From a bacterium (GTDB lineage: Bacteria; SM23-31; JAUVVT01), in assembly GCA_030616165.1 (NCBI GenBank), contig JAUWXV010000117.1:1-11277 (forward strand): DNA of 11,277 bases, given 5' to 3'. Both the position numbers and the translations under genes were made by a program. Position 1 is the stretch's first letter. Each line of letters begins with the position of its first letter. The notes below the pieces were generated by a model that did not search any database, had not been told where the DNA came from, and worked only from the letters and a program-made list of their open reading frames with translations. Shown here one piece after another: positions 530-7,171 of the stretch.

Positions 530-1165
530 ATGATATTTGAAAAAATATGGGGAGATCCATTATTTTTGACTATTATTCTTTTTGTGCTGAATTCAGCACA
601 AAAAGTTGTTTCAAAAGAAGAGAAAGAATTAATAAAGAAAGTCAAAAATGGTAATAGATTTGCATTTAATACTCTTGTTAAAAACTATCAGAAAAAAATA
701 TATCATCTTGCAAGAAGAATTGTTATGAATCATGAGGATGCTGATGAAGTTGTTCAGGAGACATTTATTAAGGCATATATTAATATATCAAAATATTCAG
801 AGGAATACAAGTTTTATACCTGGCTTTATAGGATTGCTGTGAATACATCTTTAACTCTTTTAAAGAAAAAAAAGTATCGGGGGCTTTCACTTGAAAAACT
901 CACAGAGGATGGACATTTTCAACCAACAAGCGAAGACGATACTCAGCAGAGTTCACAAAATTCTGAACTTAAAAAACTCGTAAAAGAAGCTTTAAAAAGT
1001 CTCTCCCCACAGTTAAGGACGGTGTTTATATTGAGAACCTGGGAAGAAATGAGTTATAAAGAGATTGCTCAAACCCTGAAAATATCAGAGGGAACAGTAA
1101 TGTCAAGATTGAATAGGGCAAGAGACAAATTAAAAAGAATCTTAAAAAAAACCGTGGGATATTAA
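530..1165 (+). CDS. ECF-type RNA polymerase sigma factor (sigma-70 family, RpoE-like)
   Basis: This 211-residue protein would direct RNA polymerase to a dedicated set of promoters. Region sigma-2 lies at about residues 46-112, with the typical signature HEDADEVVQETFIKAY followed by TWLYRIAVN, which covers promoter melting and core binding. A polar linker (about 120-148) leads to region sigma-4 (about 150-205). There SYKEIAQTLKISEGTVMSRL forms the helix-turn-helix that reads the -35 element. Both regions are intact. The start is uncertain. ATG 530 gives a 28-residue N-terminal extension, partly hydrophobic (LFLTIILFVL) and unusual for ECF factors, and its nearest purine-rich stretch (AAAGG, 511-515) is too far away. 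In-frame alternatives are TTG 566, with GGGGAG at 549-554, and GTG 584, which lies inside a 28-bp palindrome. The next gene on the strand encodes a zinc-finger anti-sigma factor, the expected partner. Confidence 0.93.
   Translation: MIFEKIWGDPLFLTIILFVLNSAQKVVSKEEKELIKKVKNGNRFAFNTLVKNYQKKIYHLARRIVMNHEDADEVVQETFIKAYINISKYSEEYKFYTWLYRIAVNTSLTLLKKKKYRGLSLEKLTEDGHFQPTSEDDTQQSSQNSELKKLVKEALKSLSPQLRTVFILRTWEEMSYKEIAQTLKISEGTVMSRLNRARDKLKRILKKTVGY
578..605. promoter_or_regulatory. 28-bp perfect palindrome in the 5' part of the sigma gene
   Basis: Bases 578-591 (CTTTTTGTGCTGAA) are exactly complementary in reverse to 592-605, with no mismatch. In RNA this could fold as a 12-bp stem with an AAUU loop. 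It covers the in-frame GTG at 584, a possible start, and precedes the first conserved sigma-2 residues. As duplex DNA it has the symmetry of a repressor operator. As RNA it could hide a start site or slow ribosomes. The symmetry is seen; any function is inferred. Confidence 0.6.
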
Positions 1166-1500: not shown

Positions 1501-3390
1501 ATGAAAAAGCAAAATTGCAAATGGTTTAAAAAACTGCTTGGGAGTTATCTGGATAATGAAATAGATTCGACTACAAGGAAAAAGATAGATGAACATCTTT
1601 CTGAATGTGAATCTTGTCAAGCAGAATTTAATATCCTGAAAGAAGTAAATTCTGTTAGCAAAGTTCCATTATATTTAGAACCTTCAGAAGACTACTGGGA
1701 AAGTATAGTTCCCAGAATAAGGAGTAAAATTGAAGAAGAAATAAAAGAGACTGCCTGGGAAAGATTTGCTCAATTTTTTAGAGAATTTTTTGGGTATAAT
1801 AATCTTGCAAGGAATGTTGCCGGTGCGGCAGCTGCCGCAGTCATTATAATTTTTGTCGTAAAGATTACAAATCAACAGTTAGAGTTTTTTAGCCAAAAGC
1901 CAAAAGAGACAGAAAAAATGGAGGTAGCAGAAAAAGTTGAAATCCCTCAAGAAGAGACACGTAGAGCAGAGCCTGCCGATATTTCTGAGGAAAAAAGAAC
2001 GGTACCAAAAGAAGAACCGAAGGAGAGCATTTCAGAGGTAAAAGAGACTGAAAAAATTGAAATTCCCTTAAAAGTAGAGATACCACATGAAGAAAAAATT
2101 ACATTGAAAAAGGAAGAAGCAGTTGCCCTTGCAACAAAAGAAGAAATTCAATCTGTTACGACTACTATAAAAGAAAAAGTAAAATTGGAAGAGAAGACCG
2201 ATAAATTTGAGACTGCGGTTGTGGTAAAACCTTTGGAAGAGAAAAAAGTTCCACCGAAAGAAGCAATAACTTCAGAAGATGAGAAAATCTTAGAGAGGGG
2301 CAATATTCTTAAGTATGAAGAAAAGCCGGGTATCATCATTCCTCAAAAGCAGAAGGAAGATATTTTCAGCAAAACAATAAGAAGGTCATTCCTTGATAAA
2401 GGGCCGTTATTAAGAAATGGATTTGTTGAATCGGAACAGCCAAGAAGATTAAAGAGAACTGAAATACCTATAACTGAAGAGCTATATCCCAATATACTCG
2501 ATAAATTACCCGATATTCCTTCTCCTTTTACGGCTGAAGATGGAACGGAAATTGTGATAGCCTTTTTGAAAGATAAAAAATATGCGCTCATACCTGTTAC
2601 TGTTGAGAATGGGGAACCTTTGGATTACAATAAAAATCAATGGGGCAAAGGAAATCAGCTTGAAGTCAGCATAAAAGATTTTCCAACATTAGCCATGACA
2701 GGCCTTCACTCGGAAATAGAGTTGGAAAAGACAGTTGCAATCACAGGAAAATCTATTTCAGAAATCACCTATTTGGGCAGGCCTGAAAGATCATCTACTG
2801 CAGGTTTTATGAGTGAGAATGAAGATATTATTTCCGTCTTGAAAAGCGATAATAGACTTGTGAAAAAATTAGGATTGACTCATCCTCAATCTACAAAACC
2901 ATTGTTTAATGTTTTCAATCTAATCCTGGAACATCTCGAGTATTATAGAAATAACATTAGACCATGGGAAGATATCAGTTACATTCTATATAACGGGAGA
3001 AAGATATACTTGGAGTGGGGAGGGGCAAAGGGATGGCAGGAATCAATATTTAATGATGAGGTCCTGGGATACTATCGGATTAATATTTGGAGGGAATTTA
3101 GCCAAGAGGAAAAAGCCTTTTTAGACAAAAAGTATTCAAATCTTAATGCAGAACAAATGTCAGAATTAGTAAAAAAACTTTCGCATATTCATACAGGTGA
3201 GATGGTGCCGTATTACATTATGCGCTATGGTTTCTATGAAGGGCATACAGACTATCGAACAGACCCTATAGCCATTTCATTTATCTTTGGGCTAAGGAGT
3301 CTAGAAGATATTGAAATTGCTTTTACGGGGAATTTGTATAACACCTTAACAGAACATTTTACAGAAGACAATATTATTACAATAGATTAA
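1501..3390 (+). CDS. Transmembrane anti-sigma factor with zinc-finger N-terminus and large unrecognised periplasmic domain
   Basis: The 629-residue product opens with a ZAS/zf-HC2 anti-sigma domain: C6, then H32, C36 and C39 in the HxxxCxxC arrangement that binds zinc and clamps the ECF factor in this family. One membrane helix follows (about 102-120, Ala-rich then VIIIFVV), putting the rest outside the cytoplasm. Residues about 130-320 are a Lys/Glu/Pro-rich, probably extended linker; a block near 135-153 (ETEK, then VEIP and EE) recurs near 181-199. The final 300 residues look globular: aromatic-rich, with WGGAKGWQ, a His/Glu-rich stretch (H562, H564, E567) and YGFYEGHTDYRTDP (576-589). I do not recognise this domain. 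Typical anti-sigma factors have 100-300 residues, so this one is unusually large. It sits 335 bases after its presumed sigma partner, with repeats between them. The anti-sigma role is confident; the sensing ligand is unknown. Confidence 0.85.
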   Translation: MKKQNCKWFKKLLGSYLDNEIDSTTRKKIDEHLSECESCQAEFNILKEVNSVSKVPLYLEPSEDYWESIVPRIRSKIEEEIKETAWERFAQFFREFFGYNNLARNVAGAAAAAVIIIFVVKITNQQLEFFSQKPKETEKMEVAEKVEIPQEETRRAEPADISEEKRTVPKEEPKESISEVKETEKIEIPLKVEIPHEEKITLKKEEAVALATKEEIQSVTTTIKEKVKLEEKTDKFETAVVVKPLEEKKVPPKEAITSEDEKILERGNILKYEEKPGIIIPQKQKEDIFSKTIRRSFLDKGPLLRNGFVESEQPRRLKRTEIPITEELYPNILDKLPDIPSPFTAEDGTEIVIAFLKDKKYALIPVTVENGEPLDYNKNQWGKGNQLEVSIKDFPTLAMTGLHSEIELEKTVAITGKSISEITYLGRPERSSTAGFMSENEDIISVLKSDNRLVKKLGLTHPQSTKPLFNVFNLILEHLEYYRNNIRPWEDISYILYNGRKIYLEWGGAKGWQESIFNDEVLGYYRINIWREFSQEEKAFLDKKYSNLNAEQMSELVKKLSHIHTGEMVPYYIMRYGFYEGHTDYRTDPIAISFIFGLRSLEDIEIAFTGNLYNTLTEHFTEDNIITID

Positions 3391-3561: not shown

Positions 3562-5760
3562 ATGAATAAAAGATGCCGAATTATGTTGTGCATCATTTTA
3601 ATTACAATTTTATCTTCCCCTGCCAATTTATCCGGTCAGGGATTTTTTATCCCTCGAGAAGAGTTCTCTATCGACAAAGGTTCATTGATACTTAAAAACT
3701 TAAATATTGATGTGGAGATTAATAACCAGAATGCAGAAGTAAAATTAGACCAAAAATTCATTAATGAGTCAAGATATTCTTTTGAAGGAACATATATCTT
3801 CCCAGCCCCGAGAGATGCTGCTGTAAGTAAATTTTCTATATTTTACAAGGGTAAAGAGATTAAAGGAGAAATCCTTGAAAAAAATAAAGCAAGAGGGATA
3901 TATGAAAAATATGTCAGGCGGTTTCGTGACCCAGGGCTTTTAGAATTTATAGACCAGGGGATGCTCAGGGCTTCGGTTTTTCCAATTCACTCGGGTGAAA
4001 AAACGAATATTTTTGTGGAATATAACCAGGAACTAAGAACAATCGGAGATTTGGTTAAATTATCAATTTCTCTTCATAATCTAAAAAGAAGCAGATGCCA
4101 GGATTTTATTATTACAGCACGTATCAGTGACAATAATCCAATTAATAACATCTATTCACCCTCACATAATATCGATATTGAAAGAATATCAAGACGTGAA
4201 GTAGAAATTTCATTCGAAGGAACAGGTGAAGTCAAAGATGGTGATTTCATCCTCATTTATGGAATAAGCAGGGATGAAACAGGTATGAACCTTGCGACGT
4301 TTAAAAAATCCAATGAAGATGGCTATTTTATGCTGCTTGTCTCACCATTAGAATACACCGGCAGACCGCCAAAGATAGGTCAGGATATTGTTTTTGTGCT
4401 TGACAAATCAGGCAGTATGTCAGGAGAAAAAATTCAACAGGCAAAAAATGCTCTTACTTATTGTCTGAATCAATTAAATGATGAGGACCGATTTAATATT
4501 GTGTTTTTCAGCACAAATGTGGAATCTTTTAACAAAACTCTTGTTAATCCCTCGGAACACATAAGGGAAGCAATAAATTTCATAAGAAACATCGAGGCAA
4601 GCGGCGGAACTAATATTAATGATGCTCTTCTTGAGGCACTAAAATTTAAAGAAAATAGACAAGGGCCATTCGTAATAATATTCCTTACGGATGGGCTGCC
4701 CACTGTGGGTGAAATGGATATCGGAAAAATCGTCAAAACAGTTACCGAAAAAGCACCCAATAATGTCAGGTTTTTTAACTTTGGTGTTGGATATGATGTT
4801 AATACACATCTGCTCGACCTTATAGCATTGAAAAACAGAGGAGCATCTGATTATATAGAGCCGGGAGAAAATATTGAACAGATTGTATCTTTATTTTTTG
4901 ATAAAATCTCAAAACCGTCTATGACCGATATTTCAATTGATTTTGGAGATATGATAGTTAAAGAAATTTACCCTGTAAAAATGTCTGACCTTTTTTATGG
5001 AAGCCAGATTGCAGTCTTTGGAAGATATGACGGATGGGGCAGTGAAACCATTATATTGAAAGGTAAAGTTAATGATATAAAAAAAGAATTAAGATATGAA
5101 ACATACTTCCCCAATGAAAACGAGGAGAATGATTTTCTTTCAATTTTATGGGCAAGAAGAAAGGTCGGGTATCTGATGGATGAAATAAGACTCAATGGAG
5201 AGAATGAGGAACTTGTGGAGGAAATTGTGGACCTGGCAAAAAAATACGGAATAGTAACGCCTTATACATCTTTCTTAGCACTTGAAGATGAACCTTTTGC
5301 ATATACTCCTTATCCACCCGGAAGAAGACAAAGGCCTTTTATTATTCCTCAATATCAATCAGACAAATTAAATGCTGTGGAATCTGAAGATTATACTGCA
5401 CCATTGATTTCAGTGGAAAGTGGAAAAACCGCAGTAAAAGTTAGTAAACTTACAAAATCACTCAAAGAAGGGTTCTCCCTTTCTGATGTAAAACAGAGTT
5501 CCTTAATTAAAAGGGTTGAAAATCAGACATTCTACTTGAAGAATGATTTTTGGGTCTCTTCTGATTATAATGAAGGGGACAAGACTGTCGATATAAAGTA
5601 TATGAGCGACGCATATTTCCAGCTTCTAAACAGATTTGAAGATATCAAACAGTTTCTATCAATCGGAGACAAGATTATATTTAAGTATAAAAATATATTC
5701 ATCAAAATAAGTGAATCCGGCAAAGAGAAGTTGGATGAGGATTTTTTTAAACTGTTTTAA
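3562..5760 (+). CDS. Secreted VIT and VWA domain protein (inter-alpha-trypsin inhibitor heavy-chain-like)
   Basis: The 732-residue protein starts with a Sec signal peptide (basic MNKRCR, hydrophobic MLCIILITIL, probable cleavage near LSGQG at 24-27), so it acts in the periplasm or at the surface. Residues about 33-165 form a VIT domain: GTYIFPAPRDAAVSKF, then GEILEKNKARGIYEKY. A von Willebrand factor A domain follows (about 274-445) with an intact metal-ion-dependent adhesion site: D281-x-S283-x-S285, T350, and D377 in LTDG. Such domains bind protein ligands through a divalent cation. Residues 564-573 (IVTPYTSFLA) match the conserved segment after VWA in bacterial VIT-VWA proteins. The last 150 residues end in a small domain with TFYLKNDFWV. 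There is no lipobox or sorting signal. It follows the anti-sigma gene on the same strand and a strong hairpin lies about 57 bases after its stop. Domain identity is firm; the ligand is unknown. Confidence 0.93.
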   Translation: MNKRCRIMLCIILITILSSPANLSGQGFFIPREEFSIDKGSLILKNLNIDVEINNQNAEVKLDQKFINESRYSFEGTYIFPAPRDAAVSKFSIFYKGKEIKGEILEKNKARGIYEKYVRRFRDPGLLEFIDQGMLRASVFPIHSGEKTNIFVEYNQELRTIGDLVKLSISLHNLKRSRCQDFIITARISDNNPINNIYSPSHNIDIERISRREVEISFEGTGEVKDGDFILIYGISRDETGMNLATFKKSNEDGYFMLLVSPLEYTGRPPKIGQDIVFVLDKSGSMSGEKIQQAKNALTYCLNQLNDEDRFNIVFFSTNVESFNKTLVNPSEHIREAINFIRNIEASGGTNINDALLEALKFKENRQGPFVIIFLTDGLPTVGEMDIGKIVKTVTEKAPNNVRFFNFGVGYDVNTHLLDLIALKNRGASDYIEPGENIEQIVSLFFDKISKPSMTDISIDFGDMIVKEIYPVKMSDLFYGSQIAVFGRYDGWGSETIILKGKVNDIKKELRYETYFPNENEENDFLSILWARRKVGYLMDEIRLNGENEELVEEIVDLAKKYGIVTPYTSFLALEDEPFAYTPYPPGRRQRPFIIPQYQSDKLNAVESEDYTAPLISVESGKTAVKVSKLTKSLKEGFSLSDVKQSSLIKRVENQTFYLKNDFWVSSDYNEGDKTVDIKYMSDAYFQLLNRFEDIKQFLSIGDKIIFKYKNIFIKISESGKEKLDEDFFKLF

Positions 5761-6028: not shown

Positions 6029-7171
6029 ATGAAAAAGATACTGAAAAATACGTCTATAATCTTAATCTATATATCAATTTCCATCTTCTTAACCTGTAAA
6101 CAAGATGTCGGATTATACTATTATCCCGAAAAAATGGCAGAATATCTCGAACTCAGTGAAGACCAAAGAGAGACTGTTTTCCCTAAACTAACTGCCATTC
6201 AAGAGGAGATTTTCAGATTCTTTGAGAAATGGGAAAAAATTTTTAGAACCCCTTATGGATTTGAAACTGAAGATACACAAATTGAATTTGAAAAAGAGCA
6301 AGAGGCTGCCGTCAATAAAATAATAGACACAGTCGGTGAAATTGCTAATTTATTAGATGAACAGCAGAAAGTTAAGTTATTTAATGTAGAGGTTCCTACT
6401 CTCTATTTTGAAGAAGCAATGGTAATTCAGAGAGAATACCTAATAGAAGAACAAAAGAAAGAGAATCCTGTTGTAAGAGTTTTGCCAACTATTAATGAAA
6501 AAGATATCCCAGCCAAACTTCCGGATTTATCAGAACTTCAAGATAAATGGACAGTAACCTTTGGAATGAGTAGAGGAAGGTCTGGAGGATTTTCCTTTAC
6601 AGGGGGTGGAGAAAGTCCCTCTGCAGGCATGGGTTTTCCACTTAAAATAAAAGCTACACTGCTCGACCCACTTCTCGTTATTGCACAAAAAAGACAAGAT
6701 GACAAAGTACGTGAATTCCCTTCTGATACTGCTATATCATATTTTGACAGTATAAAAAAAGATGTATTAGAAATACAAGTTTCGATAACTACTTCCTACC
6801 ATGAATCATATCTTGACCTGAAAAATTGGATTGTGTACCTGGAAAATGATAAAATTGAACAGTTCGAACCGTGGAAAATAGAAAAAAGAGAAAAACCATT
6901 TATTGAGCAGTCCAGAACTTTTAGACTTCCTTATTCTCAAAGAAGAGTTATACCTCCAACCGTGACTGATATCCCCGAGATGGAACCTTCCCGAATATTC
7001 GGAGATATGTCAAAATCTGCTTATTATTCCATATTTTTCAGGAATAAAATTCAGGGGAAACCATTTATAAGAAGAGATACTGAATTTTTGAAACTGATAT
7101 TTTTGAAAGAAATCGGAACAGCTGAACGTTCAGAGGGCAGATGGATATTTTCGAAAAGAGAATATTATTAA
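6029..7171 (+). CDS. Predicted envelope lipoprotein with LTxxQ-like helical N-terminus
   Basis: The 380-residue product has a hydrophobic leader and FLTC ending at Cys23. This resembles a lipobox, though Thr before the Cys is atypical, so lipidation is probable rather than certain. Residues about 30-150 look helical and charged, with LSEDQ (42-46) and LLDEQQ (108-113), the spacing and style of LTxxQ motifs in CpxP/Spy-type periplasmic stress proteins. A Gly/Ser-rich segment (about 176-205) then leads to a 170-residue C-terminal region rich in aromatic and basic residues that I do not recognise. The start is the first ATG; the upstream GAG at 6021-6023 is a weak ribosome site. The gene follows the VWA gene after two hairpins, so it may have its own promoter, and it converges with rarA. 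Localisation is moderately sure, function unknown. Confidence 0.75.
   Translation: MKKILKNTSIILIYISISIFLTCKQDVGLYYYPEKMAEYLELSEDQRETVFPKLTAIQEEIFRFFEKWEKIFRTPYGFETEDTQIEFEKEQEAAVNKIIDTVGEIANLLDEQQKVKLFNVEVPTLYFEEAMVIQREYLIEEQKKENPVVRVLPTINEKDIPAKLPDLSELQDKWTVTFGMSRGRSGGFSFTGGGESPSAGMGFPLKIKATLLDPLLVIAQKRQDDKVREFPSDTAISYFDSIKKDVLEIQVSITTSYHESYLDLKNWIVYLENDKIEQFEPWKIEKREKPFIEQSRTFRLPYSQRRVIPPTVTDIPEMEPSRIFGDMSKSAYYSIFFRNKIQGKPFIRRDTEFLKLIFLKEIGTAERSEGRWIFSKREYY

Follow-up and report, generated by a model that had tools for sequence, protein, structure and literature searches.

The window (the whole stretch of 11,277 bases analyzed here) encodes a zinc-type anti-sigma factor joined to a C-terminal domain of an undescribed exported family, and this protein is probably an envelope sensor in which the domain would act through a long linker to control the proteolytic release of the ECF sigma factor encoded by the preceding gene. 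The plan of such an anti-sigma factor is already known, and what is new is the domain family and its recruitment to an anti-sigma factor. The family is highly conserved, widely spread and exported, and it has neither a name nor a recognized fold or function. In the manner of a "Rosetta stone", the fusion hints that the target of the family is located in the envelope and that sensing it is worthwhile; if the reading is true, the fusion links this orphan family to envelope signaling and provides a ready reporter, in that the activity of the sigma factor could show what the domain responds to. The fuller reading, that a family with a fold not in the PDB and with HEAT-repeat partners takes part in an envelope process and was recruited here as the sensor of an ECF sigma factor, is one that we place slightly short of even.

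The fused anti-sigma factor and its sigma factor

Residues 6-40 of the fused protein (Table 1) match Pfam zf-HC2 with 40.3 bits (E 3e-10; cut-off 22.2 bits), and C6, H32, C36 and C39, found where the initial annotation had placed them, are invariant in an alignment of the window protein with the anti-sigma factors of loci L088, L089 and L093. Its single membrane helix is likewise confirmed, as residues 102-120 form the one strong hydrophobic segment (Kyte-Doolittle mean 2.16). The linker, which had been described as Lys/Glu/Pro and about 190 residues long, keeps its length (190 residues, 129-318) and its richness in Glu (21%) and Lys (16%) but is not Pro-rich (7%), and 190 residues do suffice, as had been supposed, for the C-terminal domain to extend far from the inner membrane. 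From about residue 319 to 629 (about 300-310 residues) the composition is that of an ordinary globular protein. The sigma factor is of the ECF type with regions 2 and 4 (Pfam), and its orthologs in the same phylum share 51-65% identity, two of them being encoded directly 5' of an anti-sigma gene. The gene order and the domain layout, with its zinc motif and hydrophobic helix, are direct observations; the anti-sigma part presumably binds the sigma factor, and the C-terminal domain is predicted to be periplasmic.

Table 1. Coordinates in the window of the fused protein, its parts and the neighboring genes
Feature	Position	Strand	Basis
Anti-sigma factor with C-terminal domain, 629 aa	1501..3390	+	ORF translation; ribosome-binding site AGGAG 5' of ATG 1501 (sequence inspection)
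Zinc-binding anti-sigma domain, residues 6-40	1516..1620	+	Pfam zf-HC2; C6, H32, C36, C39
Single membrane helix, about residues 102-120	1804..1860	+	Hydropathy scan
Glu/Lys-rich linker, about residues 129-318	1885..2454	+	Composition
C-terminal domain, residues 319-629	2455..3387	+	Undescribed exported family: relatives, alignments, AlphaFold models
Most conserved motif 1, GWQESIFNDE	3031..3060	+	Alignments
Most conserved motif 2, RYGFYEGH	3223..3246	+	Invariant in 28/28 aligned sequences
ECF sigma factor (partner)	530..1165	+	Pfam Sigma70_r2 and Sigma70_r4_2 above cut-off
VIT-VWA protein, possible pathway member	3562..5760	+	Pfam VIT and VWA; likely start ATG 3562

A widespread exported domain family

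Judged from its alignments, the C-terminal region is a true protein domain and not a chance extension, because it has relatives in many phyla and 57 columns are invariant in an alignment of 19 sequences. A first search, in a single genome for each species, found 18 loci, recorded under the names Aminicenantes, Zixibacteria, Eisenbacteria, Acidobacteria, Latescibacteria, Krumholzibacteria, Bacteroidota, Mcinerneyibacteriota and SM23_31, and further searches raised this number to about 45, counting fragments (38-70% identity where aligned). The members are mostly from metagenome bins and individual phylum names may be wrong, while the member from Draconibacterium orientale (L023) is encoded by the complete genome of the type strain. 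The spread is patchy: the domain was found in two of the six genomes of the window's phylum, in 15/142 genomes of the class and 6/297 of the phylum of L010, in 10/344 of the Draconibacterium order, in 2/47 of the phylum of L015 and in 3/132 of that of L012. Across 28 diverse sequences 30 columns are invariant, RYGFYEGH among them, and the window domain is homologous over its full length to the 27 other members aligned (again 38-70% identity), with both GWQESIFNDE and RYGFYEGH present. The fused copy retains 78 of the 81 positions that are conserved at >=85%, on par with the stand-alone members, and in a tree it forms a short branch near Aminicenantes sequences, a position without strong support.

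The initial annotation had suggested looking for the same domain as a stand-alone protein, and such proteins are the rule, as nearly all of the about 45 relatives are separate exported proteins. Those with a complete start are nearly all 320-400 residues long, and nearly all of them have, on inspection by eye, a hydrophobic signal or a lipoprotein-like start at the N-terminus. The members from D. orientale (L023) and Aminicenantes (L010), for example, have the same domain of about 300 residues and the same conserved positions, but they differ from the window protein in having their own N-terminal export-like signal and no attached regulator, and HEAT repeats are frequently next to the stand-alone members or fused with them. 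An anti-sigma fusion was seen in none of the about 45 other members, nor was a zinc-type anti-sigma gene present in the flanks of the first 18 loci, and the fused form is known from the window's genome alone. PD40 propeller repeats precede the domain in two Bacteroidota members (L022 and L027). A HEAT-type region follows the domain in the same frame in L024 and in a frame broken by TAA in L113 (Aminicenantes class), and the next gene encodes a HEAT-repeat protein in seven loci (L014, L019, L020, L022, L023, L025 and L027) and probably in L021, where the contig ends; L048 gave a weak match to the HEAT neighbor and no Pfam match. Since such proteins are adjacent or fused to the domain in several phyla (e.g., L020 6927-7847, L014 1214-2593 and L113 1951-3258), this gene arrangement suggests that they and the domain work together.

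Some other neighbors and forms were also seen. Methyltransferase genes are near the domain in L010, L011, L018, L020, L023 and L025. Those of an Aminicenantes bin (L011 2604-3413) and a Bacteroidales bin (L020 8758-9555) encode homologous SAM-dependent enzymes (phmmer E about 1e-65), while in the two Draconibacterium genomes the gene immediately upstream of the domain (L023 5158-5859, L025 5106-5843) encodes a PCMT (protein-L-isoaspartate methyltransferase) that has an export-like N-terminal signal. The enzymes differ in kind, methyltransferase genes are common, and they provide a weak lead only. A frame of 125 residues with its own hydrophobic start (L115 1393-1767) contains the C-terminal part of the domain only and may be a relic or a minimal version of it. 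An apparent recombinase fusion (L043/L116) was rejected because its frame crosses a stretch of N.

That the C-terminal region matches no recognized family, as first claimed, was borne out by searches of PHROGs, Pfam and NCBIfam with single members of the family, and of the PDB with single members and a profile, none of which gave a credible match that was consistent between members. The best scores were low and inconsistent: Pfam DUF3654 reached E 0.0011 in 3 of the 28 members, one PHROG reached E 0.009 in a single member, and the PDB profile search gave E 0.36. Structure prediction, also proposed at the outset, gave AlphaFold2 models of an alpha/beta domain for the window protein (pLDDT 77, pTM 0.83) and for a relative (L012, 1640-2560, model mb13b311a7be2; pLDDT 84, pTM 0.87). 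Neither model has a fold match in the PDB by Foldseek or VIA-align, which suggests a new fold, although such an absence is no proof, and no fold match assigns a function to the domain. Against viral models, the top three Foldseek hits of the L012 model were uncharacterized proteins of giant viruses (Hyperionvirus, Terrestrivirus, Satyrvirus), alike in source and not significant (E 0.04-0.4, TM 0.24-0.38). Neither relatives nor the YGFYEGH motif turned up in viral contigs beyond chance matches, and we therefore reject a viral link for the present; in phage and plasmid collections the domain was not found.

Origin of the fusion and comparison with known anti-sigma factors

Orthologs of the sigma factor are present in two sister genomes of the same class (G005, 52% identity; G004, 51%), and in both of these a gene for a zinc anti-sigma factor is at most about 50 bases 3' of the sigma gene. 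These sister anti-sigma factors (L088 and L089; 381 and 392 residues) have the helix and a polar linker, which is shorter than that of the window protein, but they have a different short end and are without the C-terminal domain. They end (L088 3176-4318, L089 2896-4071) in a different, short conserved segment (KNQWL..YL ... NSPKELKKEALDF; about 100 residues), for which no Pfam match was found in L088. In the nearest genome (G001, sigma factor 65%) the contig stops inside the sigma gene. In one of the sister genomes, G005, a separate gene for the domain (L014/L008) is also present; its product has an export-like start, and the next gene encodes a HEAT protein. We infer a gene fusion because sister sigma/anti-sigma pairs are without the domain and a separate domain gene is present in G005, and the simplest history, as read from these sequences, would be that a stand-alone gene was fused to an existing anti-sigma factor with a long linker. 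The homology to proteins with export-like starts, the absence of the fusion in the sisters and the conservation of the fused copy are directly observed. The proposal of a new type of ECF signal input is partly supported: an unrecognized domain is indeed attached to a zinc anti-sigma factor, but the domain, which would be the sensing part, is not peculiar to this one protein and belongs to a widespread exported family that was fused to an existing anti-sigma factor.

Like class I anti-sigma factors (e.g., RsiW, RsrA), the window protein has an HxxxCxxC motif (H32-C36-C39 plus C6) in an N-terminal domain of about 100 residues, an adjoining ECF sigma gene (orthologous pairs are in L088 and L089), a membrane helix and, as in many groups of this class, an extra C-terminal domain. 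Members of the class bear group-specific extra domains that are thought to perceive the stimulus (PMC7406223); the window protein differs in that none of the libraries searched contains its domain, and the literature searched yielded no case of this domain on an anti-sigma factor. A cytoplasmic domain, one helix, a long extracytoplasmic stretch and an exchangeable C-terminal domain are shared with RsgI, the anti-SigI factors of Clostridium thermocellum, which use a trans-wall region with a variety of C-terminal sensors, not all of known kind (PMC12203970). RsgI differs in its anti-sigma domain, its autocleaving periplasmic domain and its SigI partner, whereas the window has zf-HC2, the only domain matched in the protein (Pfam, NCBIfam; the RsgI N-terminal domain is absent), and a sigma factor with ECF regions 2 and 4. 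The extracytoplasmic part of RsiV, the Bacillus lysozyme receptor, binds its ligand directly (PMC4183432), the mechanism proposed for the window protein, but residues 314-629 of the window protein match no RsiV domain in Pfam or NCBIfam at E up to 1.

Proposed mechanism, alternatives and gene surroundings

In the proposed mechanism, the membrane-bound zinc anti-sigma factor would hold the ECF sigma factor encoded by the preceding gene, having gained at its extracytoplasmic end, by gene fusion, a domain that is exported separately in other bacteria. The fused domain would still bind its own target in the envelope or outside the cell, or act on it, and this state would be relayed through the linker and regulate proteolysis close to the membrane, where site-1 cleavage followed by an RseP-type intramembrane cleavage would free the ECF sigma factor. 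Sensing by the domain and release of the sigma factor by proteolysis are both predicted steps. An M50 protease encoded in the window's genome is a candidate for the intramembrane step, and is no more than permissive since M50 proteases are present in 14 of 14 control genomes. The VIT-VWA protein, the start of which resembles a signal peptide, may also belong to the pathway because the gene order is repeated in an Eisenbacteria genome (L093), where sigma and anti-sigma genes are followed about 2 kb on by a VIT-VWA gene on the same strand and the anti-sigma factor (570 residues) is without the C-terminal domain. The link is modest because four other VIT-VWA relatives (L090, L091, L092 and L094) have no adjoining sigma gene in the frames listed.

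The domain could instead be an enzyme or effector that is simply tethered to the membrane via the anti-sigma factor, giving a protein with two jobs in which the activity of the sigma factor is set by the linker, the helix or the VIT-VWA protein. The dense conservation of charged, polar and aromatic residues (GWQESIFNDE, EM, RYGFYEGH, R, DP) resembles that of an active site and would also fit an enzyme, the stand-alone form is itself an exported protein, and RsgI C-terminal domains can be glycoside hydrolases. We nevertheless regard this as unlikely, as comparison of the models with the PDB recognized no enzyme fold and an intact anti-sigma part in a fusion to a regulator is more simply an input. 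Less likely still is an anchor to the cell wall, the outer membrane or a partner, whereby spacing or damage, rather than a chemical ligand, would be felt as tension or release. A Glu/Lys-rich linker of 190 residues could span a periplasm, the genome looks diderm because an Omp85-type protein is encoded in the window, and HEAT-repeat partners suggest protein binding; yet the domain libraries contained no matching peptidoglycan- or membrane-binding family, and orthologs without the domain also have long polar linkers. An assembly error or a recent functionless join is very improbable, even though the fusion was seen in a single draft genome of 343 contigs, where its contig has 11,277 bases, and the contig of the closest relative stops within the sigma gene. 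The frame of 629 codons is open through the joint, the domain is conserved, and the sequences on either side of the joint both seem to belong on this contig, given that a VIT-VWA gene is near a sigma/anti-sigma pair in another phylum also.

Also in favor of the envelope sensor, other anti-sigma frames found in the window's genome are 138-242 residues long. The regions upstream of the sigma orthologs have no common promoter beyond AT-rich noise. Between the sigma and anti-sigma genes of the window is an element of about 250 bases (1234-1482), compared to a spacing of merely about 50 bases in sister genomes; its inverted ends (TGTCATTCCCGC ... GCAGGAATGACA) are 92% complementary, and it resembles a small repeat of the mobile or palindromic type. 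Further downstream, 6029-7171 encodes a lipoprotein-like protein of 380 residues that has no Pfam match and contains a segment, LELSEDQRETVFPKLTAIQEEIF, that recalls, by eye only, the helical repeats of periplasmic stress proteins such as CpxP/Spy.
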